Source of the DNA: Rhodospirillum centenum SW
GTDB taxonomy: Bacteria > Pseudomonadota > Alphaproteobacteria > Azospirillales > Azospirillaceae
Length of the DNA: 64,000 nucleotides
Assembly (NCBI RefSeq): GCF_000016185.1
Contig: NC_011420.2
Coordinates: 1,136,501 to 1,200,500, forward strand
Reading direction: 5' to 3'
Part shown: piece by piece, positions 943 through 48,924 of the stretch
Numbering within the stretch: position 1 is the stretch's first letter
How the letters are laid out: each line of letters begins with the position of its first letter
Program-made: the position numbers and the translations under genes
Notes under the pieces: generated by a model
The model's database searches: none
What the model was told of the DNA's origin: nothing
What the model saw: the letters and a program-made list of their open reading frames with translations, nothing else

Positions 943-953
943 GGTGCCGCTGG

Positions 954-1745: not shown

Positions 1746-1756
1746 GGCGGGCTCCC

Positions 1757-4165: not shown

Positions 4166-4231
4166 GCGTGTCCTCCCTGGGGGACGAAGGCCCGGAGCCT
4201 CTGTCGGGCGCCTGGGCCGGAAATCCGCTCT

Positions 4232-4279
4232 GTCGTCGTGTGTGCTGGCCGTCGTTTGTGCTGGTCGTCGTGTGTGCCG
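4232..4279. repeat. Three tandem 16-bp units in the coxS-coxL spacer
   Basis: Three head-to-tail 16-bp copies occupy 4232-4247, 4248-4263 and 4264-4279. Copies 1 and 3 differ at one base, and copy 2 differs slightly more. They fill part of the 155-bp spacer between the coxS stop and the coxL start. This could be replication slippage or a short regulatory array; nothing in the sequence decides which. Confidence 0.8.
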
Positions 4280-4320
4280 GTCGCGTCTGCAACCGGCTGC
4301 GGCGCCGAGGGGAGGGCGAC

Positions 4321-4815
<495 letters not shown>

Positions 4816-4965
4816 GCGCCCTCCCGGTTCGTGGCGTTCTCACCTTCACGGACCGGTGCCGGCTTGTCCCCGCCGGATGATTCGGGCCGGAGAATCCAGG
4901 GCAGTCAGGGATTCAAGGTGAGCGTATCCCGGGGGGCGCTTGCCGGTCAAGGCAGCCGGTTCTGC

Positions 4966-5865: not shown

Positions 5866-6021
5866 GGTGCGGCTCCCTCTGGCAAGCCGATCGGATATCC
5901 GGGACGGTAAACCCGTTACGGAGCCCCGGCAAGCGGGGCCCGGGCCGCGGTCCTGCGGGGACGCACCGGGTCGGAACCTTCCCGGACGTCCACCGCGGCC
6001 GTGCGGTTGTGCCTGCGTCGA

Positions 6022-7515
6022 TCAGGCAGGGTGGAAGAACAGGAATGTCAGCACAATGAACAACGGTCCCAGGCAGACAAGGGACCATGCCATGTAACCG
6101 AAGAAGCTGGGCATCCGGATGCCCTGTTCCTCGCAGATCGACTTAACCATGAAGTTGGGCGCATTACCGATATAGGTATTCGCCCCCATGAAGACCGCGC
6201 CGGCGGAGATCGCGGCCAGCGTTGTTGCCAACGGTCCCATCAGAATCTCCGGATCGCCTCCGGCCAGATTGAAGAAGACCAGATAGGTCGGCGCGTTATC
6301 AAGGAAGCTCGAGAGGGCTCCCGTCAGCCAGAAGTAGGCGGCGGGGATCGGGTTGCCATCGGGGCCTGTGACGAAGTGCGCCAGACCTGCGAGCGCGCCG
6401 TCGGTCCCGGACCGCAGAATGGCGAGGGCCGGAATCATGGTGAGGAAGATGGCGAGGAAGAGAATCGCCACTTCCTGGATGGGAGTCCAGGTGAAGGCGT
6501 TCTCGACACGGATGCTCCTGCGCGTGGACTTGAGCGACATCGCCGCGATGGCGATCAGCGCCACATCGCGGACCAGGCTGTCGAGGGGGAAGCTAAGGTG
6601 CCAGATGTGCAGCGACCATTCGGGTTCCCACGGGCCGGTCGTCAGGACGACTCCGACGACACCGGCAAGGTAGAGGATGTTGTGTCCGCCCTGGATGCGG
6701 ATCTGGCGGGATTCCTCCTCGGGCATGGGCAGGCCCTCGCGCCGCCAGGCGATGCTGTCGATCAGATAGAACACCGCCAGCAGGACCACCGACATCAGCA
6801 TCATGGGGCCGAACATGTGCTCGACCGTCCAGCCGAAGTCCACGCCTTGCAGATAGCCGATGAAGAGCGGCGGGTCGCCCAGTGGGGTCAGCGAACCGCC
6901 GATGTTGGATACCAGGAAGATGAAGAAGACGAAGACATGGACCTTCGTCTTGCGTTCCTGGTTTGCCCGCAGCAGCGGCCGGATCAGCAGCATCGAGGCG
7001 CCGGTCGTGCCGACGAGGCTTGCGATCACCGTCCCGAAGGCCAGCAGCGACAGGTTGGTGTTCGGTGTTCCGATCAGGTTCCCTGAAACCAGGATGCCGC
7101 CAGACACGACGAACAGGGTGAAGATCAGGATCAGGAAGGGCAGGTAGTCGAGCAGCAGCGTATGCAGCAGTTCGTATCCCGCGATGTCGATGCCTTCGAC
7201 GGCGGCGAAAGGGATGGCGAATGCCAGCGCCCAGAAGACGGCGACCTTGCCGAAATTATGATGCCACAGCCTGGGCAGAAGCAGAGGCATCAGAGCGATG
7301 GAAAGCAGGATGCCGACGAAGGGGATGCCCCAGAAAAGGCTGAGATCGGCCCCGTCGAGATGGGCTGTAGCCGCCTCCAGGGGTGCTGTCTGCACCGCTC
7401 CTTCGGCGGCCTGGGCCGGTAAGACGGAAACAAGAGGAAGGGCGAAGGCCAGGGTGAGCGTTTTCAGCAGGCGCAATGCAGTAGTACTCCGATCCGTGGG
7501 AGGACGGGCCGTCAT
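6022..7515 (-). CDS. Sodium:proton antiporter-like membrane protein (NhaD/ArsB superfamily)
   Basis: A 497-residue polytopic membrane protein. The first hydrophobic segment resembles a signal sequence ending in AQA, followed by about eleven further membrane segments. The substrate-site loops resemble NhaD/ion-transporter proteins: GTTGASMLLIRP and its partner NIGGSLTPLGDPPLFIG, the pair of re-entrant hairpin motifs of this superfamily. Na+/H+ exchange is the likely role; the transported ion cannot be proved from sequence. It is transcribed alone on the minus strand. Confidence 0.8.
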   Translation of the reverse strand: MTARPPTDRSTTALRLLKTLTLAFALPLVSVLPAQAAEGAVQTAPLEAATAHLDGADLSLFWGIPFVGILLSIALMPLLLPRLWHHNFGKVAVFWALAFAIPFAAVEGIDIAGYELLHTLLLDYLPFLILIFTLFVVSGGILVSGNLIGTPNTNLSLLAFGTVIASLVGTTGASMLLIRPLLRANQERKTKVHVFVFFIFLVSNIGGSLTPLGDPPLFIGYLQGVDFGWTVEHMFGPMMLMSVVLLAVFYLIDSIAWRREGLPMPEEESRQIRIQGGHNILYLAGVVGVVLTTGPWEPEWSLHIWHLSFPLDSLVRDVALIAIAAMSLKSTRRSIRVENAFTWTPIQEVAILFLAIFLTMIPALAILRSGTDGALAGLAHFVTGPDGNPIPAAYFWLTGALSSFLDNAPTYLVFFNLAGGDPEILMGPLATTLAAISAGAVFMGANTYIGNAPNFMVKSICEEQGIRMPSFFGYMAWSLVCLGPLFIVLTFLFFHPA

Positions 7516-7709
7516 TGTCGGCCAACGCTTCCAAGACCGGAGATTTCCCCAGCCGGCCTCCGGAGTATACCCATTCTCCGCCGGGAAAGGCTTGTCAAGC
7601 TGCTATGCGGCGCTGTTCCGCACATCCGTCCGCTTGCCAACGGCACAGCCGTCCGGTTCGCTCCGGGCTGCCCGTTTACTCCGGTCTCCTGCTGGAGTAT
7701 CTGCAAGGG

Positions 7710-8171
7710 ATGCAGACCTTTCTCCGCCGCCTTCTCCCGTTCCTGCTGGTTTTCGGTATCGCGCTGCCGGCGGCGGCGCGGCTGGACCGTTCCAGCGTTC
7801 TTGTCGAAACCGCCTCCGGCGGCAGCCACCGCTTCGAGGTGGAACTGGCGCTGACTCCTCAGGATCAGGCGCGCGGCCTGATGTACCGGGATCACCTTGA
7901 TCCCGCGTCCGGCATGCTCTTCCTCTACGACCGGCCGCAGCCGGCCTCGTTCTGGATGCGCAATACGCTGATTCCGCTGGATATCATCTTCATCGCGGCG
8001 GACGGGCGGATCGTGAACATCGCGGCCGAGGCCCGGCCGCTGGACGAGACGCCGCTGCCATCGGACGGCCCCATCCTGGGCGTTCTGGAGATCGGCGGCG
8101 GGCTGGCGGCCAAGCTGGGAATCAGACCCGGTGACCGCGTTGTCCACAGTGCCTTCGAGAAGGGAAAGTAA
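7710..8171 (+). CDS. DUF192 family exported protein
   Basis: A 153-residue protein with an N-terminal signal sequence (FLRRLLPFLLVFGIALPAAA). The mature domain has DUF192 hallmarks: QARGLMYRDHLDPASGMLF, FWMRNTLIPLDIIFI and ILEIGGG-like LGVLEIGGGLAAKLGI. The function of the family is unresolved. The ATG at 7710 was preferred over an upstream in-frame start because it places the signal peptide at the N-terminus. Confidence 0.85.
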   Translation: MQTFLRRLLPFLLVFGIALPAAARLDRSSVLVETASGGSHRFEVELALTPQDQARGLMYRDHLDPASGMLFLYDRPQPASFWMRNTLIPLDIIFIAADGRIVNIAAEARPLDETPLPSDGPILGVLEIGGGLAAKLGIRPGDRVVHSAFEKGK

Positions 8172-8332
8172 TTCCGGAATCCGCGGCAGATTTCTTCCGG
8201 GACATTCCCGGACATCATCAGAATTTCTGCGGGACAGACGGATCTGTCGCGGGCGATCCCGTCCTAAAGGGGTAGCGACGTCTTCCGTAAATCCGATGGA
8301 CCGGAAGGCGTGACAACCTTTAAACTGTGCCC

Positions 8333-8833
8333 ATGGTCTGGGTTCCCAACCATGTGCCGCCGCTTCAGCAACCGGCCGCCCCTGTCCGGCCGGATGTGAG
8401 GGTTGCGCCCGTGGCGGCCATCAGCGACCGCCACGACCGCCGCTCGGGCAGCGATGCGAACCGTCGCCGGCGTGCCCTTTTCGACTTCCTGATGAAGGAG
8501 GTCCACGAGATCCGGGAACTGGAGCCTGACCAGAAGGCTCTGGTGCGGGACAATCTGCGTGGATTCGTGCAGCGCCAGTCGCTGCGCTCCCCGGACCAGC
8601 CGGTTCCGCCGCCGCCCTCGCCGGAAGAGGCGGCGGACACCGCCGCCGCCGCCATGGCTCCCGCGCCGAGCCCGGAACTGCCGGCGGACGAGCGGGAGAA
8701 CCGCCGCCGCCTGCGGGAGGAGGTGCGGCGCCTGCTGATGCTGCACAGCGACCGTGCCACCAAGATCGCCGCCTACATCCATGGCCTGATGGTGGCGACG
8801 CGCGAGGTGCATGTGGTCGATCTGGACGTCTGA
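8333..8833 (+). CDS. Hypothetical protein, Pro/Ala-rich with a charged C-terminal helix
   Basis: A 166-residue protein not recognised. A basic stretch (DANRRRRALFDFLMKEVHEI) is followed by a Pro/Glu/Ala-rich middle, then a charged helical C-terminus (ENRRRLREEVRRLLMLHSDR). There is no signal peptide or membrane segment. An in-frame GTG lies 6 bp upstream of the chosen ATG. It is flanked by unrelated genes. Confidence 0.6.
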   Translation: MVWVPNHVPPLQQPAAPVRPDVRVAPVAAISDRHDRRSGSDANRRRRALFDFLMKEVHEIRELEPDQKALVRDNLRGFVQRQSLRSPDQPVPPPPSPEEAADTAAAAMAPAPSPELPADERENRRRLREEVRRLLMLHSDRATKIAAYIHGLMVATREVHVVDLDV

Positions 8834-8848
8834 TCCGGGGGGCCGGCG

Positions 8849-9514
8849 TCAGCGTCGCCGCGCCAGGGTCAGGCCGTCGCCGATCGGCACCTGGCAGAGC
8901 GAGACCCTTTCGTCCCGCCCCAGCTTGGCGTTCAGCGCCCGGATCGCCTCCGTCCGGGGCGTCGTGTCCGCCGGGTCGGCGACCCGGCCGCTCCAGAGCG
9001 TGTTGTCCAGCGCCACGAGCCCGCCCGGCCGGACGAGGCGCAGCGCCTGTTCGTAGTAGGTATCGTAGTTGGGCTTGTCGGCGTCGATGAAGACCATGTC
9101 GAACGTCTCCCCCAGCCCCTCGGCCAGCAGCGCGTCGAGCGTGTCCAGCGCCGGCCCCAGCCGCAGCTCGATCCGGTCGGCGATGCCGGCTTCGGCCCAG
9201 TAGCGCCGCGCAACCGCGGTCCACTCCTCCGACACGTCGCAGCAGATCAGGCGCCCCTGCGGCGGCAGCGCCAGCGCGCAGGCGAGGGCGGAATAGCCGG
9301 TGAAGGTGCCTACCTCCAGCAGACGCACGGCGCCGGTCAGTTCCACCAGCAGCGCCAGGAACTGCCCCTGTTCGGGGGCGATCTGCATCGACGCCTGGCT
9401 GCCGAGCGCTGCGGTTTCCTCGCGCAGGCGGGCCAGGACCGCCGGTTCCCGCACCGAGGTGGCGCGGTAATAGGCATAGAGCCGGTCGTCCATCCCGATG
9501 GTTCGCGGCGACAT
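8849..9514 (-). CDS. Class I SAM-dependent O-methyltransferase (CCoAOMT-like)
   Basis: A 221-residue protein of the Methyltransf_3 family. Motif [16 protein letters not shown] binds SAM, the acidic loop is CCDVSEEW, and the metal/catalytic region is [16 protein letters not shown] followed by [15 protein letters not shown]. Members methylate catechol-type hydroxyls in a divalent-metal-dependent way; the substrate here is unknown. It converges on the plus-strand hypothetical gene ending at 8833. Confidence 0.88.
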
Positions 9515-9673
9515 CGGACCCTCCCGCGCCGGTGGTGCAGATCACCCATTCATAGGACGCGGCACCTGACCTGTCACCGGCGCAACAATCGGATGCTATC
9601 ACCGTCCGGGCGGGACCGGGGTCCCGCCGCCGGTGCCATCTCCGCCCGGACGCCCGTCTTCCGGTCCGCCGCC

Positions 9674-10603
9674 ATGTCCTCCAATCCGGTCCTCTACGCC
9701 GCCGCCGTGCTGATCTGGGGCTCCACCTGGTATGCCATCGAGTTCCAGCTCGGCGTCGTGGACCCCGCCGTCTCGGTGACGTACCGCTTCGCCCTGGCCG
9801 GTTCGCTGATGCTGGGCTGGCTGGCGGTGACGCGGCAGCGCCTGCTGCCGCCGCGCGCCGGCTGGCCCGCCATCCTGGTCACCGGGGTCTTCACCTTCTC
9901 GCTGAACTACCTGCTGATCTACAAGGCGACCGGGCTTCTCCCGTCGGGTCTGGTGGCGGTCGCCGGATCGACCCTCAGCCTGATGAACGTGCTGAATTCG
10001 CGGATATTCCTCGGCCAGCCGATGCGCCCGGCGGTGCTGCTCGGCGGCCTGATGGGTGTGGGGGGCGTGCTGCTGCTGTTCTCTCCGGAGATCGAGCGAC
10101 ACGGCTGGGTCGGTGGCACGCTGCTGGGCCTGGGGCTGGTCTTCCTGGGGAACTACTGCGCTTCGCTCGGCAACATGGCCGTGTCCAAGGCCCGCCGGGC
10201 GCAGGTGCCGCTGGTGGCGGCCACCGCCTGGGGCATGCTGGGCGGCGCCGCCCTGACGGCGCTGACCGCGGTCGTCCGTGGTGTGCCGTTCGATTTCGAC
10301 CCGTCGCTGCCCTATGTGCTGTCGCTGCTGTACCTCGCCCTGTTCGGGTCGGTCGCCGCGTTCCTCAGCTATTTCACGCTGCTGGGGCGGATCGGGGCGG
10401 ACCGGGCCGGCTATACGGCGGTGATGACGCCGATCCTGGCCCTGGTCATCTCCACCCTGTTCGAAGACTACCAGTGGAACCTGTCCGCGGCCCTGGGCCT
10501 GATGCTGGCGGTGGGGGGCAACATTCTGGTGATGGCGCCGGGGAGCCTGCGGCTGAAGCCCCCGATGGCGGCCGGTAAGGCGGCGGCCGGTGAGGCCGGC
10601 TGA
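9674..10603 (+). CDS. EamA-family DMT transporter
   Basis: A 309-residue protein with about ten membrane segments arranged as two EamA repeats. The N-terminal motif LIWGSTWYAIEFQLG is typical of the drug/metabolite transporter superfamily. The ATG at 9674 was chosen because the upstream 27 codons are not membrane-like. The substrate is unknown. Confidence 0.85.
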   Translation: MSSNPVLYAAAVLIWGSTWYAIEFQLGVVDPAVSVTYRFALAGSLMLGWLAVTRQRLLPPRAGWPAILVTGVFTFSLNYLLIYKATGLLPSGLVAVAGSTLSLMNVLNSRIFLGQPMRPAVLLGGLMGVGGVLLLFSPEIERHGWVGGTLLGLGLVFLGNYCASLGNMAVSKARRAQVPLVAATAWGMLGGAALTALTAVVRGVPFDFDPSLPYVLSLLYLALFGSVAAFLSYFTLLGRIGADRAGYTAVMTPILALVISTLFEDYQWNLSAALGLMLAVGGNILVMAPGSLRLKPPMAAGKAAAGEAG

Positions 10604-10706
10604 CCTGCCCCACGCCCGTCCGGACGGACAGTCCGGCCTTGATCATCCGAACGGTCGGGGCCGGTGGCCTTGCCCCGGCCGGGAGCGTGGTGTATCTCCA
10701 CCATGA

Positions 10707-10783
10707 CGGAGCGTAGCGCAGTCTGGTAGCGCGGCTGGTTTGGGTCCAGCAGGCCGGAGGTTCGAATCCTCTCGCTCCGACCA
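10707..10783 (+). tRNA. tRNA-Pro(UGG)
   Basis: A 77-nt cloverleaf. The acceptor arms CGGAGCG and CGCTCCG pair fully, the T-loop TTCGAAT is present, and CCA is encoded. The seven-base anticodon loop at 10739-10745 carries TGG at 10741-10743. Confidence 0.97.
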
Positions 10784-10859
10784 GCTTCCCGCGCCGGCCC
10801 GCTGGCGCACTTCCGGGGTCCACGGGGCCCCTCCCGAGGATGAGAGGCGGCTTGCGGTC

Positions 10860-11165
10860 ATGAAGGTCCGGATCTACCAGCCCAGCAAGACGACGATGCA
10901 GTCGGGGCGTGCCAAGACCAGCGGCTGGCTCCTGGAATACGAGATCGAGACACCGCGCCGCGCCGAGCCGCTGATGGGCTGGATTTCCTCGGGCGACACG
11001 CTGAACCAGGTCCGCCTGCGCTTCGACAGCAAGGAGGCGGCCATCGCCTTCGCGGAGAAGAAGGGGTGGGCCTGCGACGTGGCCGAGAGCCATACGCGCC
11101 GCGTCACGCCCAAGAGCTACGCGGACAATTTCCGGTCGGACCGGCCCCGCATCGGCCGGTTCTGA
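10860..11165 (+). CDS. NDUFS4-like accessory subunit of respiratory complex I
   Basis: A 101-residue protein of the ETC complex I subunit (NDUFS4, 18-kDa) family found in alphaproteobacteria and mitochondria. Typical features are the opening VRIYQPSKTTMQSGRAKT, the WLLEYE segment, GWISSGDTLNQVRLRF and the end KSYADNFRSDRP. It has a lone position between two tRNA genes. It stabilises the NADH-dehydrogenase module in homologues. Confidence 0.88.
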   Translation: MKVRIYQPSKTTMQSGRAKTSGWLLEYEIETPRRAEPLMGWISSGDTLNQVRLRFDSKEAAIAFAEKKGWACDVAESHTRRVTPKSYADNFRSDRPRIGRF

Positions 11166-11181
11166 CAGCTCCGGACCCAGG

Positions 11182-11258
11182 GCGCCCTTAGCTCAGTCGG
11201 ATAGAGCAACCGCCTTCTAAGCGGTAGGTCACAGGTTCGAATCCTGTAGGGCGCGCCA
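11182..11258 (+). tRNA. tRNA-Arg(UCU)
   Basis: A 77-nt cloverleaf with acceptor arms GCGCCCT and AGGGCGC, T-loop TTCGAAT and an encoded CCA. The stem ACCGC/GCGGT encloses loop CTTCTAA with anticodon TCT. It lies 84 bp left of the prophage end. No second copy of its 3' end was found on the right flank. Confidence 0.96.
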
Positions 11259-11337
11259 TTTCAGGAAAGAACTCTGCCCCCCTCTGATTGAGTTCGGCTT
11301 GACCATTCGGTTCTATTAATCGGATTGCCGCAATAAG

Positions 11338-11342
11338 GCAGC
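11338..11342. repeat. Left 5-bp target-site duplication (GCAGC)
   Basis: GCAGC immediately precedes the TGT terminus of the prophage. The same five bases follow the right terminus at 50103-50107. Mu-type transposition produces exactly such a 5-bp duplication. Confidence 0.93.
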
Positions 11343-11367
11343 TGTGACACGACAGATGGTCTTGGAG
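11343..11367 (+). repeat. Left-end terminal MuA-binding repeat (L1)
   Basis: The outermost 25 bp of the left end begin TGT and end ATGGTCTTGGAG. They match the reverse complement of 50078-50102 at 18 of 25 positions. Two further copies of the core lie inside the left end, one inverted at 11453-11473 and one direct at 11488-11506 (GCGACAGATGGTCGTGGAG). This arrangement resembles the L1/L2/L3 transposase sites of Mu. Confidence 0.85.
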
Positions 11368-11452
11368 AGGACCGGGATATTCCGAGAATTACCGGGACGT
11401 ATCGAGACACCGCAGAAACCCTGGGGTTCGGGGCGCCTTCGGTGGGGACCTG

Positions 11453-11473
11453 CTCCAAAACCATGTGACGCAC
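11453..11473 (-). repeat. Internal left-end transposase site (L2, inverted)
   Basis: On the minus strand this reads ...CACATGGTTTTGGAG, matching the ATGGTC-TGGAG core of the terminal repeats. Its orientation is opposite to L1 and L3. Confidence 0.7.
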
Positions 11474-11487
11474 CGAAAACGGCCTTT

Positions 11488-11506
11488 GCGACAGATGGTC
11501 GTGGAG
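11488..11506 (+). repeat. Internal left-end transposase site (L3)
   Basis: GCGACAGATGGTCGTGGAG repeats the core of the terminal repeat and closely matches the reverse complement of the right-end site at 50056-50075. The remaining left end up to 11644 contains no gene I can support. Confidence 0.75.
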
Positions 11507-11644
11507 GCGCCCCAGGGTCGACGCGGAGGGCGAAAGAGGCCCCGTCGAAGCGGGTGACGGTACCGCGGCGCCCGGCTACCACCAAAGATATTGCCCACCG
11601 CTCACGGTGTCGATAGGTTCCAGCCTGCCGCGCTCTGACGATCC

Positions 11645-13225: not shown

Positions 13226-13702
13226 ATGCGTATCCGGGGGGATGATCGGACGCTCGACCTGCTGAACTGGGAGCCGCCGAAGGTGGTGCACCGCTTCGAG
13301 GTCGATCATGTGCGCGCCGCGACCCTGCGGGCGCAGATCTCCAAGGCGGTCGCCGTGGCCCTGAAGGACTGCGGCAAGAACCGCGACGAGGTCGCCCAGG
13401 AGATGACCGACTACCTGGGCGAGACCACCGGCAAGAACATGCTGGACGCCTATGCGTCGGAGGCCCGCGAGGACCACGTCATCAACGTGGTGCGCTTCAT
13501 GGGGCTGGTGCACGCCACCGGCGACATCCGCCTGCTGCAGCTGCTGGCCGAGCCGTTCGGCCTGGCGGTGGTCGAGAAGAAGTACCTGCCCGCCATCGAT
13601 GAGGCCATGGACGTCGACCGCCGCGAAGCGCTGGCGGCCGAGCTGGACCGCCTGGACCAGCGCATCGCCGTGCGCCGCAAGCACCGCCGGGGGACACCAT
13701 GA
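13226..13702 (+). CDS. Early phage protein upstream of transposase, unknown
   Basis: A 158-residue protein opening MRIRGDDRTLDLLNWEPPKV. It contains AVALKDCGKNRDEVAQEMTD and a helical C-terminus (DRREALAAELDRLDQRIAVR). Comparable proteins occur between ner and MuA in alphaproteobacterial Mu-like phages. Its stop overlaps the MuA start by 4 bp (ATGA). A DNA-binding role is possible but not shown. Confidence 0.7.
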   Translation: MRIRGDDRTLDLLNWEPPKVVHRFEVDHVRAATLRAQISKAVAVALKDCGKNRDEVAQEMTDYLGETTGKNMLDAYASEAREDHVINVVRFMGLVHATGDIRLLQLLAEPFGLAVVEKKYLPAIDEAMDVDRREALAAELDRLDQRIAVRRKHRRGTP

Positions 13703-15831
13703 AGGACTGGTTCACGGCGGCCGAGCTGGCCGACCTGCAGCTGCCGGCCATCGCCTCCACCGAGCGCGGCATCCGCGGGCAGGCCACCCGCGGCGGGTGG
13801 GAGAGCCGCCAGCGCGCGGCTCGCGGCGGCGGTCGGGAGTATCCCCTTTCGGCGCTGCCCGAGGAGGCCCGCCTGGAGCTCGCCCGCCGGGCGGCGGCCG
13901 AGGCCGGCGACTATGAGAAGCCGACCCCGCCGAAGCGCAAGAGCGTCGGCCCGGCGCCGCAGAACGTCAACGTCGCCACGATGCCCGAGAAGCACCTGGC
14001 GGAGATGGAGGCCAAGGCGGCCGTGGTGCGCGCCTTCCACGCCTACCGCGACACCTGCGGCCTGGGGCAGGAGAAGGCCCGGCTGGAGTTCTGCGCGCTC
14101 TACAGCGAGCGTGTCATCCCGGTGGCGCCGTGGGTCCGCGACCAGGTGCCGCAGGTCAGCAAGAACGCCCTGCGCAAGTGGGAGAAGGCGATGGCCGAGC
14201 ACGGCCTGGCCGGGCTGGCGCCGCGCTACGGCAACCGCGCCGGCACCGGCATCCTGGACACCGACCAGGAGATGCAGACCTTCGTCCTCGGCCTGCTGGC
14301 CGATGCGCCGCACGTGTCATCGGCGCTGGTTTACAAGGGCTTGAAGGCCCGTTTCAGCGACCGTGAGCTGCCGTCCCTGCGGTCGGTGCAGCGCTTCATG
14401 GAGCGCTGGAAGGAGCGCAACAAGCAGCTGTTCGAGAAGGTCATGAACCCGGACGCCTGGCGCTCGAAGTACAAGGCCGCCTCGGGCTCGCGGTCGGAGG
14501 GCATCATCCGCCTCAACCAGGTGTGGGAGATGGACAGCACACCGGCCGACCTGCTGCTGGCGGACAACCAGCGCCACGCCCTGATCGGCATCATCGACGT
14601 GTACTCCCGCCGCCTGCGCCTGCTGGTGTCGCGGACGTCGTCGGCCGCCGCGATCGCCAGCGCCTTCCGCGCCTCCATCATGGCGTGGGGCGTGCCGGAG
14701 AGCGTGCGCATCGACAACGGCGCCGACTACATCAGCCGGCACATGCGCCGGGCCTATGACGCCCTGGGCGTCGAGACCGACATCTGCCCGCCGTTCACGC
14801 CCGAGAGCAAGCCGCACATCGAGCGCGCCTTCCGCACCTTCAGCCACGACCTGCTGGAGCTGCAGGCCGGCTTCATCGGTCACAACGTTGCCGAGCGCAA
14901 GGCGATCGAGGCCCGCAAGTCCTTCGCCCAGCGGCTGATGACGCGGGGCGAGACGGTCGAGATGCGCATGACGCCGGAAGAGCTGCAGAAGTTCTGCGAC
15001 CAGTGGTGCCAGGACATCTACCAGCACGACCAGCACGGCGGCCTGAACAACAAGACGCCGTTCCAGATGGCGGCGGCCTGGACGGCGCCGATCAAGCGCA
15101 TCGAGAACGAGCGCGCGCTGGACGTGCTGTTGTCCCCGACAGCCGGCGACGGCTGGCGCGTGGTCACCAAGAAGGGCATCCGCATCGACGGCGCCAGCTT
15201 CGACCACCAGTTCCTCGGCGGCATGGAAGGCCAGCGAGTGCAGGTCCTCTTCGACGAGGCGGACTACGGCTTCGTCTATGTCTTCGATGAGGCTGGCGAG
15301 TTCGTCTGCAAGGCCATGTGCCCGGAGCGGGTCGGCGTCAGCCGCATCGACGTCGCCGTCGCCCGCAAGGCGCGCCAGAACCAGGTCATCGCCGAGGGCA
15401 TGAAGCAGCTGCGCAAGGCCAAGAAGGACGCCCGCACCGAGGACGTGGTGGGCGACATCCTGATGGCCCGCGCCGAGGAGGCCGGCAAGCTGGTCACCTT
15501 CCCGACCCGCAGCGAGGCGCACACCACGCCGGCCCTGGACCAGGCGGCCCGTGCCGGCCGCGTCCTGCCGGAGCCGCCGCCGGCCCGCACCACCGCCGAC
15601 CGCGAGCGCCACCTGGCGCTGGTCGAGGAGCTGCGCACGGCGCCGCCGCCGCGTGACGAACGCGCGGAGAAGCGCGCTCGCGTGGAGCGCGCCCTGGAGA
15701 TCGAACAAAGGCTTGAAGCTGGCGAGGCCGTCGATGCCGACGATCGCCGGTGGTTCGAGGGGTACCGCGATCATCCCGAGTTCCAGACGCAGAAGGAGAT
15801 GATCGCGGAGTTCGGGCGGATGGTCATCTGA
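13699..15831 (+). CDS. Mu-type DDE transposase (MuA)
   Basis: A 710-residue transposase that cuts and joins the prophage ends. An N-terminal winged-helix Mu DNA-binding domain (WFTAAELADLQLPAIAST...REYPLSALP) is followed by a second HTH domain. The RNase-H-fold rve core has catalytic D279 (WEMDSTPADL), D339 (VRIDNGADY) and E375 (KPHIERAF). The Mu-transpos_C beta-barrel region follows, and a charged helical tail ends the protein, comparable to the part of MuA that contacts MuB and ClpX. The cognate binding sites are the end repeats at 11343-11506 and 50056-50102. Confidence 0.95.
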   Translation: MKDWFTAAELADLQLPAIASTERGIRGQATRGGWESRQRAARGGGREYPLSALPEEARLELARRAAAEAGDYEKPTPPKRKSVGPAPQNVNVATMPEKHLAEMEAKAAVVRAFHAYRDTCGLGQEKARLEFCALYSERVIPVAPWVRDQVPQVSKNALRKWEKAMAEHGLAGLAPRYGNRAGTGILDTDQEMQTFVLGLLADAPHVSSALVYKGLKARFSDRELPSLRSVQRFMERWKERNKQLFEKVMNPDAWRSKYKAASGSRSEGIIRLNQVWEMDSTPADLLLADNQRHALIGIIDVYSRRLRLLVSRTSSAAAIASAFRASIMAWGVPESVRIDNGADYISRHMRRAYDALGVETDICPPFTPESKPHIERAFRTFSHDLLELQAGFIGHNVAERKAIEARKSFAQRLMTRGETVEMRMTPEELQKFCDQWCQDIYQHDQHGGLNNKTPFQMAAAWTAPIKRIENERALDVLLSPTAGDGWRVVTKKGIRIDGASFDHQFLGGMEGQRVQVLFDEADYGFVYVFDEAGEFVCKAMCPERVGVSRIDVAVARKARQNQVIAEGMKQLRKAKKDARTEDVVGDILMARAEEAGKLVTFPTRSEAHTTPALDQAARAGRVLPEPPPARTTADRERHLALVEELRTAPPPRDERAEKRARVERALEIEQRLEAGEAVDADDRRWFEGYRDHPEFQTQKEMIAEFGRMVI

Positions 15832-15884: not shown

Positions 15885-16622
15885 ATGCCATTGGACCACG
15901 AAGTCAACAGCGGAACCATCGCGCCGCTGCGCAACGTGACCCTGTTCAACGAGGTGGTGAAGCGGGTGGTGAACCGCCCGCGCCACCTGCCGGGAATGGC
16001 CACCTTCCACGGCTTCTCCGGCTACGGCAAGACGTTTTCGGCAACCTACGCCGCCAACAAGTTCCGGGCCTACTACGTCGAGGTCGGCGAGAGCTGGACC
16101 AAGGCCAAGTTCTGCAAGTCGCTGATGATCGAGCTCGGCCTGCAGCCCAAGGGCACCGTCGCCGACATGGTCGACGCCATCATCAATCAGCTGGTGGTGA
16201 CCGACCGGCCGGTGATCATTGACGAGTTCGACCACGTGGTGCGCCGCCGGTACCACGAGACCATCCGCGAGATCCACGACAAGTCCGGCGCGCCGATGGT
16301 GCTGATCGGCGAGGAGATGCTGCCGCAGCAGCTGGCGGCCTCGGAGCGGTTCCACAACCGCATGCTCGACTGGGTGCCGGCGGTGCCGGCCGACGTCACC
16401 GACGCCATCGCCCTGGCCGAGCTCTACGCGCCGGAGATCGCCATCGCCGACGACCTGATCGACCACATCGCCCGCCAGGCCGGCGGCCGCGTCCGCCGCA
16501 TCTGCGTGAACCTGGAGAAGGTGCGGGAGACGGCCCGCTCGGAAGGGTGGGGTTCTGTCGACCTGAAGGCCTGGGGCGACCGCCCGCTGTTCTCCGGCCA
16601 GCCGCCGGCGCGTCGGGGGTGA
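15885..16622 (+). CDS. MuB-like AAA+ target-DNA activator
   Basis: A 245-residue AAA+ ATPase (ExeA/AAA_22 type). Walker A GFSGYGKT is at residues 43-50 and Walker B VIIDEFDHV around D113/E114. In Mu, MuB coats target DNA, gives target immunity and stimulates MuA. It lies 53 bp downstream of the transposase gene. Confidence 0.93.
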   Translation: MPLDHEVNSGTIAPLRNVTLFNEVVKRVVNRPRHLPGMATFHGFSGYGKTFSATYAANKFRAYYVEVGESWTKAKFCKSLMIELGLQPKGTVADMVDAIINQLVVTDRPVIIDEFDHVVRRRYHETIREIHDKSGAPMVLIGEEMLPQQLAASERFHNRMLDWVPAVPADVTDAIALAELYAPEIAIADDLIDHIARQAGGRVRRICVNLEKVRETARSEGWGSVDLKAWGDRPLFSGQPPARRG

Positions 16623-18543: not shown

Positions 18544-18749
18544 GCCGTCTGCAGTTCGCCCACATCCCCGGCATGGGGCCGGCCGGCAAGACCTGCCGCG
18601 TGTGCCGCCACTGGAACACCGACAGCCACAAGGAGCGCGTCTGCGCCAAGGCCGCCGAGCTCTCGGGCAAGCGGCTGGAGGACCTGACGCCGGTCTCCGG
18701 CGGCACGTGCGCCTGCAAGTACTGGGAGGAGCGCAGTGAGACACCCTGA
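18540..18749 (+). CDS. Small four/five-cysteine protein
   Basis: A 69-residue protein with CRVCRHW near residue 20, VCAK in the middle and GGTCACKYW at the end, spacing suggestive of a zinc site. A chromosomal protein at 61088-61312 has a similar cysteine layout. It overlaps the previous gene by 4 bp. Confidence 0.65.
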   Translation: MSRLQFAHIPGMGPAGKTCRVCRHWNTDSHKERVCAKAAELSGKRLEDLTPVSGGTCACKYWEERSETP

Positions 18750-18846
18750 GTACCTCGTTGCCTGCCGGACGGTGACCGCCCCGCGGCCCGTTCGGGGCTA
18801 CTTCAAACGCCTGTTCAACCGCCTGTTCAAGAGGGTTCAAGCATGA
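18736..18846 (+). CDS. Tiny basic peptide (36 codons)
   Basis: A GTG-started frame overlapping the preceding stop and ending in a TGA that overlaps the next ATG. The product contains GYFKRLFNRLFKRVQA, an amphipathic basic repeat. It fills an otherwise empty gap in a tightly packed operon. It may be real or only a leader. Confidence 0.35.
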   Translation: MRHPEYLVACRTVTAPRPVRGYFKRLFNRLFKRVQA

Positions 18847-19496
18847 CCGAGAGCAACCTGATCACCCTGCCCACCCCAGCCGTCGACGCGCCGGCCGGCT
18901 TCGTCATGGACGCCAAGGGCCGCCTGGTGCCCGAGACCAGCATCAAGGCTCACGAGCAGCTGGAGGACCAGATGGTCCGCAAGGTGCTGAGCTACGCCGT
19001 CGAGCTGGCCAACCAGATCCGCCGCTTCAAGGGCCACGTCTTCGCCGACGCCAACAGCTACATGAGCCTCGCCGAGGAGGAATACGGCGTCTCCAAGCGC
19101 GGCGCCAAGGGCAAGGGCAACGTCACCTTCACCACCTACGACGGCCTCATGAAGTTTCAGATCGCCGTCGCCGACCGCCTGACCTTCGGGCCGGAGCTGC
19201 AGATCGCCCGCCAGCTGTTCGAGGAGTGCATCGTCGACTGGGCAGAGGGCGCCCGGCCGGAGTTGCGCGTGCTGGTCGACGGCGCCTTCCAGACCGACAA
19301 GGAGGGCAACGTCAGCCGCGACGCCATCTTCCGTCTGCTGCGCATCGACTTCGACGATGCCCGGTGGAAGCGCGGCCAGGACGCCATCCGCGACAGCATC
19401 CGCATCATCGGCTCCAAGAGCTACGCCCGCTTCTACGTTCGCGAGAACCAGGAGGCGCAGTGGCGCTCGGTGCCGATCGACCTGGCCGCCGCGTGA
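18843..19496 (+). CDS. DUF3164 early phage protein
   Basis: A 217-residue protein of the DUF3164 family typical of Mu-like early regions: FVMDAKGRLVPETSIKAHEQ, an IRRFKGHVFADANSYMSLAEE segment, and RVLVDGAFQTDKEGNVSRDA. The function is unknown. It is cytoplasmic with no membrane segments. Confidence 0.85.
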   Translation: MTESNLITLPTPAVDAPAGFVMDAKGRLVPETSIKAHEQLEDQMVRKVLSYAVELANQIRRFKGHVFADANSYMSLAEEEYGVSKRGAKGKGNVTFTTYDGLMKFQIAVADRLTFGPELQIARQLFEECIVDWAEGARPELRVLVDGAFQTDKEGNVSRDAIFRLLRIDFDDARWKRGQDAIRDSIRIIGSKSYARFYVRENQEAQWRSVPIDLAAA

Positions 19497-19506
19497 GGGG
19501 GTCGCC

Positions 19507-19770
19507 GTGAGCATCGAATGCAGGTCGGACGTCATCTGCCCTGTGTGCGGTCATCCCGATTGGGACACCTTCGAGGCCGAGGCCGGCGAGCATGTCTGCG
19601 CCGGCTGCGGCAACCCGTTCTGGCTGACCATCGAGACCGAGCATCTGTTCGTGACCGAGACGATCGAGGACCACCTGGTCGCCATCGGCAGGAAGCAACC
19701 GCAGCCCCTGGAGCTGACGCCCTTGGAAGAGGCGATCGCCAGGGCCGAGAGAGGGTTCGCCAATGTTTGA
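19507..19770 (+). CDS. Small zinc-ribbon protein
   Basis: An 87-residue protein starting at GTG. CPVCGH near residue 11 and CAGCG near residue 31 form a CxxC...CxxC zinc ribbon, followed by an acidic helical tail. The function is unknown. It overlaps the following gene by 8 bp. Confidence 0.7.
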   Translation: MSIECRSDVICPVCGHPDWDTFEAEAGEHVCAGCGNPFWLTIETEHLFVTETIEDHLVAIGRKQPQPLELTPLEEAIARAERGFANV

Positions 19771-20209
19771 GATCATCCCACCGAAGACCGGGCTCAAGTC
19801 CCGGCCCGTCGGCGCCGGCGAAGTGGCCATCAGCGTCCGGCGCGGACCCGCCCACCGGGGTCATGTCCTGACCTTCTCCATGGGCCAGGACCTGGCCATC
19901 GCGCTCGACTGGCGCGACGGCACCAAGGTCGTTGTCGCCTGGGGCCGCGACAAGGCGCTCGGCAAGGTCAAGATCGGCCCGGCCGTCGGTGACGGCCCGA
20001 ACTGGGAGGTGCGCGGCAACAAGGCGCGCGACGTCTTCAAGGTCTACACGGGCGCCCTGCCGGAGACCTTCTCCGGCGAGCTCTACAGCGGCAAGCGCGT
20101 GGTGCACGAGGTCATCAAGACGGCCGCCACCGAGCCGGCGCCGTACCTGGTGGTGACCTTGCCCAAGGGCTTCCACGAGGACCTGGTCAGGGCGATGGCC
20201 CATGCCTGA
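19763..20209 (+). CDS. Early phage protein, unknown
   Basis: A 148-residue protein (MFEIIPPKTGLKSRPVGAGE; a beta-rich middle with AIALDWRDGTKVVVAWGRD). It is not recognised. It is packed between the zinc-ribbon gene and a tiny frame that leads into the VR2 target gene. Confidence 0.65.
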   Translation: MFEIIPPKTGLKSRPVGAGEVAISVRRGPAHRGHVLTFSMGQDLAIALDWRDGTKVVVAWGRDKALGKVKIGPAVGDGPNWEVRGNKARDVFKVYTGALPETFSGELYSGKRVVHEVIKTAATEPAPYLVVTLPKGFHEDLVRAMAHA

Positions 20210-20303
20210 GCGCGAGACCGAGGACGGCTTCAATCCGTGGGGCAACGGCCCGGTGCCTGTGATGCCGCGCCAGCCCGAACCGAACGACACCGAGGGGGAA
20301 TGA
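20202..20303 (+). CDS. Tiny hypothetical peptide (33 codons)
   Basis: An ATG overlapping the previous gene, ending 4 bp before the VR2 target gene. The product is acidic and proline-rich (GFNPWGNGPVPVMPRQPEPN). Its placement suggests translational coupling, but its coding status is uncertain. Confidence 0.4.
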   Translation: MPERETEDGFNPWGNGPVPVMPRQPEPNDTEGE

Positions 20304-20307
20304 CATC

Positions 20308-21489
20308 ATGAAGACCATCGACATCAACGTGAGCGGCCCGGTCGGCTGCGGCAAGTCCGCCATCCTGGCCATGATCGAGCGCGAGCTGCGCCGCCAGGGC
20401 TTCGCCTTCCGCTACGCCAATCCGGCCGAGGATGTGCCCGAGAAGAACCTGGCCGACGTGGTCGGCGAGCTGGCTGGCCTCGACCGCGGCGCCGTCGCCT
20501 TCGTCCTGCGCAGCGACGGCGGGGCGGCGGTGGACGGCTCGACCGCACCGCTCGGCGTCGGCTACACGCCCGGCAAGGGGTGGCGTCGCCTCGGCCTCGG
20601 CGACGGGCGCGACATCGGCGCCAACCGCCTGTTCTCCGGCATCGAGCCGCGGACGGTCGATGGTCAGGAGGTGGTGGCCATCCCCGCCTTCCACTACCGC
20701 GTCGAGAGCGACGACGCCGGCTTCCGGCTGTGGCTGTCGGCCCAGCCGCGCGACGGCTACACCCGACACCCGGCCTTCATGCTGGACGGCGCGCCCATGG
20801 ACGAGATCCTGGTCGGCGCCTACGAGGCATCCGGCGGCGACGTCGCCGCATCGCAGCGCGGCGAGAAGCCGATGGTCAACGTCTCTCTGCCCGAGATGCG
20901 GAACGCCTGCGCCGCCCGTGGCGAGGGCTGGGGCCTGTGGTCCATCTACGAGCTCGCCGCCATCCAGATGCTGGCCCTGGTCGAGGTCGGCCACCCGGAC
21001 CTGCAGGACGCCATCGGCCGGGGCAACGTGTCGGGCTCCGGCGCCGTTCCCGGCGGCTCCACCAGCGCCGCCTGGCGCGGGCTGCATGAGCTGTGGGGCA
21101 ACGTCTTCCACTGGGTCGACGGCCTGCGCGTGTCCGCCGCCGGCGACATCGAGGCCTGGGACCTGGCCGGCCGCCGCGAGTGGGTCAACACCGAGATCCG
21201 CTCGCAGCTGGTCGAGGAGGGCGGGTGGCCGACCGCGTTCCACGCCGAGCCGGAGATCGACGCGCTCCTGCTGCCGTGCGCCGTCACCGGCGACCGCGAC
21301 CAGGCGATGGTCCGCGACTATCACTTCGGTGCCTGGGAGGACGTCGAGAGCTACCCAATCCACGGCGGCAGCTGGGGCAGCGGGTCGTACGCGGGCCTCT
21401 TCAGCCTGACCCTGAACAACGCCCCGGCGAACTCGTGCACGAACATCGGTGGCCGCCTCGCGAAGCGTGTCCGGTCCTCGGCCAACTGA
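20308..21489 (+). CDS. DGR remote target: P-loop segment fused to C-type-lectin/FGE-like domain with VR2
   Basis: A 393-residue protein. Residues 1 to about 60 carry a P-loop (GPVGCGKS at 10-17) and resemble short P-loop proteins of Mu-like early regions. From about residue 110 a formylglycine-generating-enzyme/C-type-lectin-like fold follows, clearly related to the C-terminus of the tail-fibre target (shared LWSIYE, LWGNV, WVN). The last part (residues 352-385) is a variable repeat matching the DGR template at 48655-48756. A hairpin follows the stop. There is no signal peptide. It lies among early transposition genes, 27 kb from the reverse transcriptase. The function is unknown; its site of action may be inside the host. 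Confidence 0.88.
   Translation: MKTIDINVSGPVGCGKSAILAMIERELRRQGFAFRYANPAEDVPEKNLADVVGELAGLDRGAVAFVLRSDGGAAVDGSTAPLGVGYTPGKGWRRLGLGDGRDIGANRLFSGIEPRTVDGQEVVAIPAFHYRVESDDAGFRLWLSAQPRDGYTRHPAFMLDGAPMDEILVGAYEASGGDVAASQRGEKPMVNVSLPEMRNACAARGEGWGLWSIYELAAIQMLALVEVGHPDLQDAIGRGNVSGSGAVPGGSTSAAWRGLHELWGNVFHWVDGLRVSAAGDIEAWDLAGRREWVNTEIRSQLVEEGGWPTAFHAEPEIDALLLPCAVTGDRDQAMVRDYHFGAWEDVESYPIHGGSWGSGSYAGLFSLTLNNAPANSCTNIGGRLAKRVRSSAN
21361..21462 (+). repeat. DGR variable repeat VR2 (remote)
   Basis: A 102-nt copy of the template repeat in the same reading frame. It differs from TR at ten positions; nine are TR adenines and one is a T-to-G change in codon 24. The 3' block GGTGGCCGCCTCGCGAA is identical to TR, after which VR has G where TR has C, the pattern expected for an initiation-of-mutagenic-homing (IMH) sequence. 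Confidence 0.93.
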
Positions 21490-21497
21490 GTTCTGCC

Positions 21498-21519
21498 GGC
21501 GGCGCCGGCAGGCGCCGCC
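21498..21519 (+). promoter_or_regulatory. DGR target hairpin downstream of VR2
   Basis: A perfect 9-bp stem (21498-21506 with 21511-21519) closed by tetraloop GGCA, starting 35 nt after VR2. The loop fits the GRNA consensus of DGR target-recognition hairpins. A different stem of the same length with loop GAGA lies 36 nt after VR1. Confidence 0.8.
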
Positions 21520-21538
21520 CTACCATGGGAGGGTGATC

Positions 21539-21994
21539 ATGAGTGCAGCCAAGAAGAACCCGACCCGGCTGGCCCTGATCAAGAAGGTTCACGTCGCCGC
21601 CCGCCAGCTGGCGCTGACCGACGACTGCTACCGCTCCGTCCTGGCGCGGGCCACCGGCGGCAAGGCCTCGACCAAGGCCATGAGCATCATCGAGCTGGAG
21701 GCGGTGGTCCGCGAGTTCCGCCGCCTCGGCTGGAAGGACCAGCCGGCGCGCAAGGCCGGCACCCGGCCCCAGGCCGACACCGAGCAGGCCCGCAAGGCGC
21801 GGGCGCTGTGGCTGGCTCTGGCCAACATGGGCGTCCTGCGCGATGCCTCGGAGGCGGCGCTGGCCCTGTGGGTGAAGCGCCAGACCGGCGTCGACGCGCT
21901 CCAGTGGCTCGGGCCGGAAGAGCTCAACCAGGTGATCGAGGCGCTCAAGTCCTGGGTCGCCCGCGAACGCGCCAAGAGGGAGGCAGGCCGATGA
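21539..21994 (+). CDS. gemA: GemA-like protein (DUF1018)
   Basis: A 151-residue GemA-family protein: LIKKVHVAARQLALTDDCYR, SVLARATGGKASTKAMSIIE and REFRRLGWK are family hallmarks. In Mu, GemA modulates host gene expression and DNA topology late in the early phase. It begins 19 bp after the VR2 hairpin. Confidence 0.9.
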   Translation: MSAAKKNPTRLALIKKVHVAARQLALTDDCYRSVLARATGGKASTKAMSIIELEAVVREFRRLGWKDQPARKAGTRPQADTEQARKARALWLALANMGVLRDASEAALALWVKRQTGVDALQWLGPEELNQVIEALKSWVARERAKREAGR

Positions 21995-22245
21995 GCAAGT
22001 TCCGCCGCAAGCACCAGCGCCGCGGCCGGTACGCCGCCAGCCAGGAGGCGGCGCCGCTGCTGGCCCACATGCCGACGGCGCAGGGTATGCACGACGCTCT
22101 GGTCGGTGGCGGCTTCGTCCTGGCCAAGAGCGTCCGCCCCTACCTGCGGACGGACGGCCTCATGTCCATCCGCTTCGTGTGGCGTCTGCGCCACCAGGGC
22201 GGCACCACCTCCGTCACCTACACCGAAGTCCTGCGGGTGGGATGA
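21991..22245 (+). CDS. Small basic phage protein, unknown
   Basis: An 84-residue basic protein (MSKFRRKHQRRGRYAASQEA). It overlaps gemA by 4 bp and the Mor-like gene by 4 bp. It is not recognised. Confidence 0.6.
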   Translation: MSKFRRKHQRRGRYAASQEAAPLLAHMPTAQGMHDALVGGGFVLAKSVRPYLRTDGLMSIRFVWRLRHQGGTTSVTYTEVLRVG

Positions 22246-22628
22246 TGTCCATGACGCCGATCGTGTCGATGCAGCTGGCCGAGATCGCGGAGGTCGTGGG
22301 CGTGCCCGCAGCCCTGCGGCTGGCCGATGCGTTCGGCGGTCAGGAGGGGTGCAACGTGCCGAAGACCCCGCGGCGGGATCACCCGTGGGTCGAGCCGCTG
22401 GGGTGGGAGCCCTTCGCGGCGCTGTGCGAGGCCTACGGCGGATGCCGCATCACCATCCCGCGCAACGCCTTCGCCAAGACCATCAAGTCGAAGATGGCGG
22501 AGCTGAAGCGGCAGGGCTACTCCCATCGTGCCATCGCCCGTCGCCTCAAGTGCACCGAGCGGTATGTCCGCATGGTCATGAACGGCGGCCAGGACGATCG
22601 CCAGGCCTGCCTCTTCGCGGACGATTGA
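22242..22628 (+). CDS. Mor/C-family transcription activator
   Basis: A 128-residue protein of the Mor family. An N-terminal dimerisation region (IAEVVGVPAALRLADAFGG) is followed by a C-terminal HTH (LKRQGYSHRAIARRLKCTER). In Mu, Mor activates the middle promoter and C the late promoters. Only one such gene is visible here, so it may do both. Its probable sites are the three 18-bp palindromes at 22680, 29834 and 41849. It is the last gene of the early operon. Confidence 0.85.
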   Translation: MMSMTPIVSMQLAEIAEVVGVPAALRLADAFGGQEGCNVPKTPRRDHPWVEPLGWEPFAALCEAYGGCRITIPRNAFAKTIKSKMAELKRQGYSHRAIARRLKCTERYVRMVMNGGQDDRQACLFADD

Positions 22629-22679
22629 CGCCGGGCCGGCGAGATAGAATACTCCTCCGCAGTTCCGTCGGAGGTGGTG

Positions 22680-22697
22680 CCCGGAAGATCTTCCGGG
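22680..22697. promoter_or_regulatory. 18-bp palindrome 1, candidate late activator site (lysis operon)
   Basis: The sequence is CCCGGAA-GATC-TTCCGGG, a perfect palindrome. Copies with the same arms and other centres lie at 29834-29851 and 41849-41866, each at the head of a late operon. All three continue GCA. It corresponds in position to Mu Plys. Binding by the Mor/C protein is inference. Confidence 0.7.
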
Positions 22698-22726
22698 CAT
22701 TACTACAGGACAGTCGCAGCGATCAT

Positions 22727-22757
22727 CCCCTCAGGTACTCAAGCCTGAGGGGTTTTT
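22727..22757 (+). terminator. Rho-independent-type hairpin before endolysin
   Basis: Nine-bp stem CCCCTCAGG/CCTGAGGGG with an eight-base loop, followed by TTTTT. It could end early transcription. Its 3' arm contains GAGGGG, which is also the only good ribosome-binding site for the GTG at 22759, so it may instead, or also, control endolysin translation. Confidence 0.7.
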
Positions 22758-22758
22758 C

Positions 22759-23319
22759 GTGTCCGACAGCCTATTCCAGCACGCGCTCGACGTCGTGCTC
22801 GCCCACGAGGGCGGCTTCGTCAACGACCCCGTCGATCCGGGCGGCGCCACCAACTGGGGCATCTCGCTGCGCTGGCTGGCCAGCGCGGGCGAGCTCGACC
22901 TCGACGGCGACGGGTCGCCCGACGGTGACCTCGACCTGGACGGCGACATCGACGTCGACGACATCCGCGCCATGACCCGCGAGGACGCGGCCTTCTTCTA
23001 CCGCGCCCACTGGTGGGACCGTCACGACTACGGCGCCCTCCACCTGACGGTCGCCACCAAGGTCTTCGACCTGGCCGTCAACATGGGGTCGCCGCAGGCG
23101 CACAAGCTCCTGCAGCGGGCCTGCCGCGCCTGCGGCAAGGAGATCGCCGACGACGGCATCATCGGCCCCGTCACCCGCGCCACCGTCGCCGGCATCCCGC
23201 CCGAGATGCTGATCCCGCCGCTCCGTGAAGCCGCCGCCGGCTTCTACCGCCAGCTCATCGCCGTGCGTCCCCAGCTCGCCAAGTACGAGCGCGGGTGGCT
23301 CAAGCGCGCCTACTACTGA
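22759..23319 (+). CDS. Endolysin, GH108 N-acetylmuramidase with EF-hand-like insert
   Basis: A 186-residue peptidoglycan hydrolase. The GH108 motif VLAHEGGFVNDPVDPGGATN gives catalytic E17, and the C-terminal half matches the peptidoglycan-binding_3 region (VNMGSPQAHKLLQ). Between them, residues about 50-73 contain repeated Asp/Gly loops (DLDGDGSPDGDLDLDGDIDV) resembling EF-hand or dockerin calcium loops. No signal peptide is present, so release needs a holin. The start is GTG. Confidence 0.9.
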   Translation: MSDSLFQHALDVVLAHEGGFVNDPVDPGGATNWGISLRWLASAGELDLDGDGSPDGDLDLDGDIDVDDIRAMTREDAAFFYRAHWWDRHDYGALHLTVATKVFDLAVNMGSPQAHKLLQRACRACGKEIADDGIIGPVTRATVAGIPPEMLIPPLREAAAGFYRQLIAVRPQLAKYERGWLKRAYY

Positions 23320-48756: not shown

Positions 48757-48924
48757 AACGAACAAGGCCAGAAGTCGGTGTCCGACAGGGCACCTTCCAG
48801 TGCTGTTACTTCGGGGCTGTTGTCCGCTCCCCGATGGGGAGGAAGATCAACAGGCCGGCGCGGCTAGTAGGGCTCAGGCCCGAATGTGGCGCCGGCCTCC
48901 ACTTTGAGCAGAGGAGAATGTGCA

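Follow-up and report, generated by a model that had tools for sequence, protein, structure and literature searches.

A gene in the early region of a Mu-like prophage of Rhodospirillum centenum SW is almost certainly, to judge from its sequence, a true remote target of the prophage's DGR. The gene lies at 20308-21489 of the window, as we call the whole 64,000-nucleotide stretch analysed (positions 1136501-1200500 of the 4.36-Mb single-contig genome), and is an open frame for a 393-residue protein that, according to structure models, joins a mini P-loop module, a linker and a C-type-lectin domain, the lectin matching phrog_5302. The C-terminal part of this protein is encoded by a variable repeat, VR2, whose start lies 27,294 bases from that of the template repeat (TR), in agreement with the earlier note, which had placed a second, remote and adenine-biased repeat at the end of this gene, 27 kb from the TR.

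All features listed for the window lie on the + strand. MuA, a MuB-like protein and GemA are clear Mu-like phage markers in the window, and a Mor-like one falls under its cutoff: the genes for Mu transposase A (13699-15831; Mu-transpos_C, rve, HTH_Tnp_Mu_1) and a MuB-like ATPase (15885-16622; AAA_22, TniB, phrog_296) are followed by those for the DUF3164 early protein (18843-19496; PF11363, 2e-62), the VR2 protein, GemA directly after it (21539-21994; PF06252, 1.4e-38, scanned from 21548) and a Mor-like activator (22251-22628; PF08765, 2.9e-4, 21.3 bits, its cutoff of 24.9 not being reached). The VR2 gene lies between those for DUF3164 and GemA; its setting among early genes is as originally described. 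The DGR cassette, downstream of the prophage tail genes, comprises the first target, an 850-residue tail-type protein (45391-47943; phrog_5302 tail protein, with an Ig-type domain) with VR1 (47834-47936) at its end; a hairpin after VR1 (47971-47992; 9-bp stem, GAGA loop); the accessory protein Avd (48300-48656; PF22296 bAvd, 1.2e-27; phrog_3206); the 103-nt TR (48656-48758; 26 adenines); and the reverse transcriptase (RT; 48886-49995; PF00078, 9.8e-24; phrog_1423, 6e-132). RT and Avd are thus present in the same element as the VR2 gene. A 94-residue ORF (48013-48297) that separates the VR1 gene from Avd has no NCBIfam match, and an ORF of similar size likewise precedes Avd in locus L216 (14-313).

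Three in-register copies of the repeat, namely VR2 (21362-21464), VR1 and the TR, are found in the window and in the whole 4.36-Mb genome alike. VR2 departs from the TR at nine positions, eight of which are TR adenines (26 of the 103 bases being A; hypergeometric p = 5e-5), and VR1 departs from it at 12, of which 11 are adenines (p = 4e-7); the two variable repeats of this genome differ from each other at 15 of 103 sites. The adenine bias reported earlier for VR2 thus stands, and the count of ten differences with nine at adenines becomes nine with eight within the 103 nt; the tenth lies one base further upstream (21361 at VR2, 48655 at the TR), is C in both VR2 and VR1, and is therefore probably the edge of the homology rather than a mutation. 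The repeat shares the reading frame of ORF 20308-21489, as claimed, and encodes about residues 352-386 of 393, with TR adenines only at codon positions 1 and 2.

The unchanged GC-rich 3' block and the downstream hairpin resembling that of VR1, both noticed at the outset, are also borne out. The IMH-like block (21446-21464) consists of 19 nt that are the same in all six copies compared, i.e., the TR, VR1 and VR2 of the window phage and of its relative G462. The hairpin (21498-21519) has a 9-bp stem and a GGCA loop, of the GRNA type, and begins 33 nt past VR2, as against 34 nt for the 9-bp hairpin past VR1; the 70 nt after the TR contain no perfect stem of at least 6 bp with a 4-nt loop. A GRNA loop on a stem of at least 7 bp occurs in 0.12% of 20,000 stretches of 70 nt drawn at random from the window and follows all seven remote VRs and all five adjacent VRs tested in Mu-like phages, none of four TRs, and six of the six early VRs of loci L196-L201; in the large phages G480 and G481, a GRNA hairpin follows one of two remote and neither of two adjacent VRs. 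A chance or ordinary repeat is ruled out for VR2 by the adenine bias and the hairpin statistics. Phage DGR hairpins of 7-10 bp with a GRNA loop, 4-34 bp after the VR, have been described, and BPP-1 requires its own; a figure legend of the same paper names R. centenum SW (Guo et al., 2011; PMC3240598). The IMH block and GRNA-loop hairpin are shared with the BPP-1 Mtd/VR system, in which the target, however, is the tail tip beside the RT, whereas VR2 is remote.

Judged from comparison with relatives, VR2 is diversifying in nature. The relative G462 (IMG/VR contig 3300042281_000566; loci L005, L010, and L152) has the same gene in the same place, with a protein 93% identical (L005), and a TR identical to that of the window (L010). 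Its VR2 differs from the window VR2 at 17 sites, 15 of which are TR adenines (15 of 26 adenine sites against two of 77 others; Fisher p = 2e-9), and divergence reaches 17% in VR2 as compared with about 2.5% across the remainder of a 12.8-kb BLAST alignment. Codons 352-385 carry 17 non-synonymous and no synonymous changes between the window and L005, and Ka/Ks is 0.08 over codons 1-110 and 0.14 over the scaffold (codons 111-351). VR2 is therefore not fixed among relatives, nor do its differences spread appreciably beyond TR adenines, the two outcomes that the earlier note had named as counting against its proposal. The case for natural variation is stronger still in the lineage of loci L197-L200, in which the early lectin gene is identical over 909 nt outside the VR in six of six pairs and differs at 12-20 of 120 nt within it, all but 0-1 of these at TR adenines. 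With L114, L196 and L201 included, all 21 pairs differ at 12-21 VR positions, 0-3 of which lie away from TR adenines, and at 0-64 of the 909 outside; the VR of L201 is close to the TR sequence. As the L196-L201 contigs show no RT, the TR for these comparisons was taken from related records (L025, L027 and L026, which are identical, and L029, with one difference).

The early position of the target recurs in other Mu-like phages. Relatives of the RT were collected in 46 IMG/VR loci, including one (L009) that is the window phage itself, and in 42 of these self-comparison revealed a TR/VR pair with adenine bias (none in L021, L031, L049, and L053). For 27 of the 42, the TR was compared with all or most of the record; 14 others besides L009 are short contigs that were compared within the locus only. 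A remote VR is present in six of the 27 records (G462, G472, with two, G474, G476, G480, and G481). A marker-protein search of 31 records, several of them covered in part, found GemA in six, four of which (G462, G472, G474, and G476) have the early target; the other two, G463 and G485, have an adjacent VR only. With the window counted, the target thus sits just upstream of gemA in five of seven Mu-like DGR phages in which gemA is visible, at a distance of 0.05-0.65 kb, with a Mor-like gene after gemA and Gam or DUF3164 upstream of the target (except in G474, the contig of which starts inside the target). The neighbouring genes scanned comprise DUF3164, GemA and Mor-like ones, with a Gam-like one in L057, L113 and L114. 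The two early VRs of G472 differ from its TR exclusively at adenines (12 of 12 and 15 of 15 differences); these targets stand in tandem (L114, 1284-3562), giving three targets from one TR. An early lectin precedes gemA in all six of L196-L201 as well, and L057 (G495) encodes a complete mini P-loop and lectin fusion of 399 residues directly before gemA, with the Gam-like gene upstream; this contig stops partway through the tail-lectin gene, short of any TR. The search of other phages for the same fusion that had been proposed earlier hence recovered it twice, in L005 (93% identity) and L057 (56%).

The early target appears to be optional, since G463, G485 and four named Mu-like DGR phages (BalMu-1, YPCBV-1, Bise, and ZX4290) have an adjacent VR only; no early target was found in any of these four, and each of them, like the P2-like ACA1, has one adenine-biased TR/VR pair adjoining the RT. 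Several other arrangements were also encountered. The 80-90-kb phages G480 and G481 gave no matches to the Mu-like marker proteins, and their second VRs (L118, 7567-7678; L119, 7104-7213) lie about 64 and about 51 kb from the TR, where nearby genes match terminase gpA and, in G480, radical SAM weakly and with scores under the cutoff. The second target of G496 (second lectin, 14560-15411; L238, 1135-2343), about 4 kb after the RT, has all nine VR differences at TR adenines, no gemA found beside it, and no GRNA hairpin at either of its VRs; its N-terminal domain, for which a MazG-like identity finds no support, matches phrog_31484, an unrelated phage domain. In G497 and G498 a GemA-like gene (phrog_286) follows the early lectin. 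The adenine bias against the TR is weak in G497 (seven of 16 differences at A; p = 0.017), and the two phages differ from each other at 22 of 105 VR sites, 13 of them at TR adenines, and at 89 of 1014 positions outside. G503 has a single adjacent VR, and G504 a repeat pair with no adenine bias. In L023 (G470; IMGVR 2829501449_000001, 375-11596), a whole DGR cassette (a bare 354-residue lectin, TR, and RT) lies between early-type genes (DUF3164, Bro-N) and DUF5675, peptidase and terminase genes; an ORF at 5433-5768 occupies the usual place of Avd, and no target other than the 354-residue lectin was found in that record.

The fusion was also sought in bacterial chromosomes. A pattern search of genome contigs gave 15 pattern matches and no relatives, and a search of 194 related genomes gave one positive, the R. 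centenum genome itself. In the class sample, the lectin profile matched two of 385 genomes, R. centenum and G376, and the 16 kb around the G376 lectin hold no match to the window early and structural genes tested, to Avd or to the RT. The first 60 residues matched 22 of the 385 at E ≤ 0.01, and all but the match in R. centenum have E-values of 0.0025 or weaker and are short Walker-A matches. Matches to the lectin occur in 22 records of named phages, with rows that begin at residue 109 or later, and none covers 80% of the VR2 protein.

In a tree of 22 lectin scaffolds, built after removal of the VR, the early targets of the window, L005, L057 and L113 fall together (93/99), with support of 99/98 for the first three, although long branches (L057 and L113) and the odd residue make-up of four early rows call for caution with this group. 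The tandem early copies of G472 are placed next to the tail lectins of G472 and its close relatives (96/99). The tree thus requires no fewer than two changes between the tail and early positions, a single change being found in none of 200 bootstrap trees, and two arrivals at the early place would be the simplest reading.

The P-loop segment of the earlier note has a Walker A motif but amounts to a mini-domain of about 58 residues that reaches no Pfam family cutoff and is absent from some early targets. The module (residues 1-58; 20308-20481) carries GPVGCGKS at residues 10-17, which apart from the C/S position is unchanged in all 15 rows compared, and EKN at residues 45-47. A complete NTPase is ruled out by scores far below cutoff (Pfam best match AAA_16, 13.6 bits against 32.6; NCBIfam best match, 12.2 against 750), and a PDB sequence search returned generic Walker-A matches, the best being a designed ATPase (1.3e-5). 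The module is homologous to stand-alone phage proteins of 70-106 residues in 10 loci (L162-L166, L168-L170, L172, and L173) to longer ones in L167, L171, L174 and L176, and to the proteins of 242-247 residues in phage PhiKM and look-alikes, these lengths depending on the start codons chosen. Such phrog_3787-like proteins, whether alone or longer, share SGPVG[CS]GKS and a conserved E (mostly EKN, EKR, or ERR) about 28 residues on, and differ from the VR2 protein in having neither lectin nor VR. Between the window and L057, residues 1-51 are 86% identical (Ka/Ks 0.13) and the lectin scaffold 50% (Ka/Ks 0.50), so the mini P-loop, as the best conserved part, is not a decaying remnant; these ratios show purifying selection on scaffold and N-terminus alike. 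The mini P-loop N-terminus is found in the window, L005 and L057; other early targets begin with a segment of about 45 residues that, on visual comparison, is similar in L113, L237 and L239, or, in G472, with a short N-terminus of uncertain start.

Structure prediction, likewise suggested in the earlier note, models the lectin fold confidently and residues 1-58 as a folded mini P-loop. The latter is predicted as strand, P-loop, helix, strand and two helices (AlphaFold block means of 74-88 over residues 1-50 and 56 over 51-60), followed by a mostly low-confidence linker (residues 59-81; 20482-20550; pLDDT below 50 at residues 61-75) and the C-type-lectin-fold domain (residues 82-390; 20551-21477). 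The best PDB match of this domain is TaqVP (5vf4; Z 27.7, 253 residues, rmsd 2.7 Å), followed by TvpA (Z 15.7), PvdO and Mtd (Z 15.2); this comparison used the whole protein in the first model only, in which the N-terminus is undefined. A second model, made with the stand-alone homologues, has a confident N-terminus and is less confident in parts of residues 300-380. TaqVP, the variable protein that a Thermus aquaticus prophage diversifies through its DGR, shares the C-type-lectin fold over residues 110-388 of the VR2 protein, with the mini P-loop outside the match; its gene, unlike the remote VR2 gene, has avd, TR and RT as neighbours, the arrangement seen in BPP-1 (PMC6328139).

The VR2 gene is very probably expressed with the early genes, as its setting indicates. 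The genes from 18843 to 22628 are tightly spaced on one strand; a sigma-70 consensus scan of 18700-22900 showed no promoter-like site on the + strand before 22625, and the sole terminator-like site in that interval (22727-22752; 1.0 expected by chance) follows mor. All this accords with early expression, though in this host such evidence is weak. No hydrophobic leader is seen by eye, in accord with the lack of a signal peptide noted before, and PADLOC assigns the protein to no defence family (best E 0.088).

The best reading of these sequence data, which document the gene's identity as a DGR target, its natural diversification, location, recurrence and fold, is that of a working remote target whose product would be a C-type-lectin binder in the cytosol, made along with the early operon and probably serving in conflict with the host or between phages. 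We hold this reading, as a whole, with somewhat better than even confidence. TR RNA would be copied by the RT, with Avd, such that random bases are placed opposite adenines, and the mutagenised cDNA would home to VR2 as well as to VR1, because VR2 keeps the target-marking 3' block and the GRNA hairpin. The product would be a bare C-type-lectin binder, with neither a tail shaft nor a leader in evidence, borne on a mini P-loop module, and should be made early and in the cytoplasm given the position of its gene inside the DUF3164-gemA-mor cluster. It may bind a variable component of the host or of a rival phage during takeover or lysogeny, in the service of counter-defence or superinfection control, while VR1 would diversify the receptor-binding tip. 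That the protein is not a virion part is likely; a conflict role, whether against the host or against competing phages, is a tentative proposal, with somewhat less than an even chance.

The main rival, which we consider unlikely, makes the VR2 protein an accessory virion part, that is, an early-encoded, packaged receptor-binding or decoration lectin through which the DGR would widen adsorption, as at VR1. This would suit the homology of the VR2 lectin to the prophage's own tail lectin (46% when its own genome was searched), the 'tail protein' label of its family (phrog_5302), the nesting of the G472 early copies among tail lectins, and the nearest solved structure, TaqVP, being likewise a prophage DGR target. 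Nevertheless, the protein has no visible tail-attachment part, its gene lies away from the tail genes, between DUF3164 and gemA, and N-termini vary among the early targets, the remote target of G496 carrying its phrog_31484-like domain.

The closeness of the G472 early copies to the tail-tip lectin, whose shaft they lack, together with the feeding of both places by one TR, could also be accommodated by a soluble decoy or immunity factor that, at the surface or after lysis, masks receptors of the tail-tip class or acts as a competitor of sibling or rival phages. We regard this as quite improbable, for no signal peptide is seen by eye, and the 15 differences between VR1 and VR2 over 103 sites leave room for different ligands. 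Least probable of all, in our estimation, is a neutral by-product, wherein a duplicated lectin end that moved to the early region is diversified only via its kept IMH and hairpin and serves no function. The optional presence of the early target and the tandem copies in G472 are compatible with such an origin, but the two or more moves to a single place that the tree requires, the intact frames and kept hairpins, and Ka/Ks values of 0.13 (residues 1-51) and 0.50 (scaffold) against L057 and 0.14 (scaffold) against L005 argue for a maintained gene. Returning to the preferred reading of a cytosolic binder, a more speculative extension, held as less likely than not, is that the early DGR lectin, placed more than once by Mu-like phages among their early genes, is a cytosolic, antibody-like binder constantly renewed against variable defence proteins of the host or against rival phages, with N-terminal modules as exchangeable effector or docking parts.

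Remote second targets are not without precedent. In the Quimbyviridae, a lectin target lies distal to the structural genes, among methyltransferases, and a conflict role was suggested (Benler et al., 2021; PMC8008677). The window phage shares with them two C-type-lectin targets, the second remote from the RT (here 27.3 kb from the TR) and outside the structural genes; the Quimbyviridae, however, are described as phages of about 75 kb, of Bacteroides and others, with the second target on the opposite strand, near methyltransferases and a mutY-like gene, whereas that of the Mu-like window phage is on the same strand, before gemA, and fused to a mini P-loop. Four gut prophage species have also been reported to carry a second VR, distal from the RT and near counter-defence genes (a 2025 Nature article; PMC12629997); the second remote VR, there found by TR BLAST, is common to both systems, and the portions of that article considered here name no gemA/mor location or P-loop fusion. 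Two-target phage DGRs appear in two further papers (PMC11792537; PMC10743442). Since remote, non-structural second targets are thus already published, what is new is confined to the early location, its recurrence and this fusion, and the earlier suggestion that no target of such architecture had been described needs to be narrowed to that extent. In the open-licence literature searched, titles and abstract openings hold no report of an early-operon DGR target in Mu-like phages, and Guo et al. (2011) is the only paper found there on DGRs and R. centenum. By its own statement, the survey of Roux et al. (2021; PMC8144416) would miss targets away from the RT. Such targets may therefore be undercounted.

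Phage DGRs are mostly understood as receptor-switching tools. The present findings suggest that phages also diversify proteins acting inside the infected cell, and a recurrent early target, with a VR that varies while the gene is otherwise identical, makes it a testable question what a phage must vary there.
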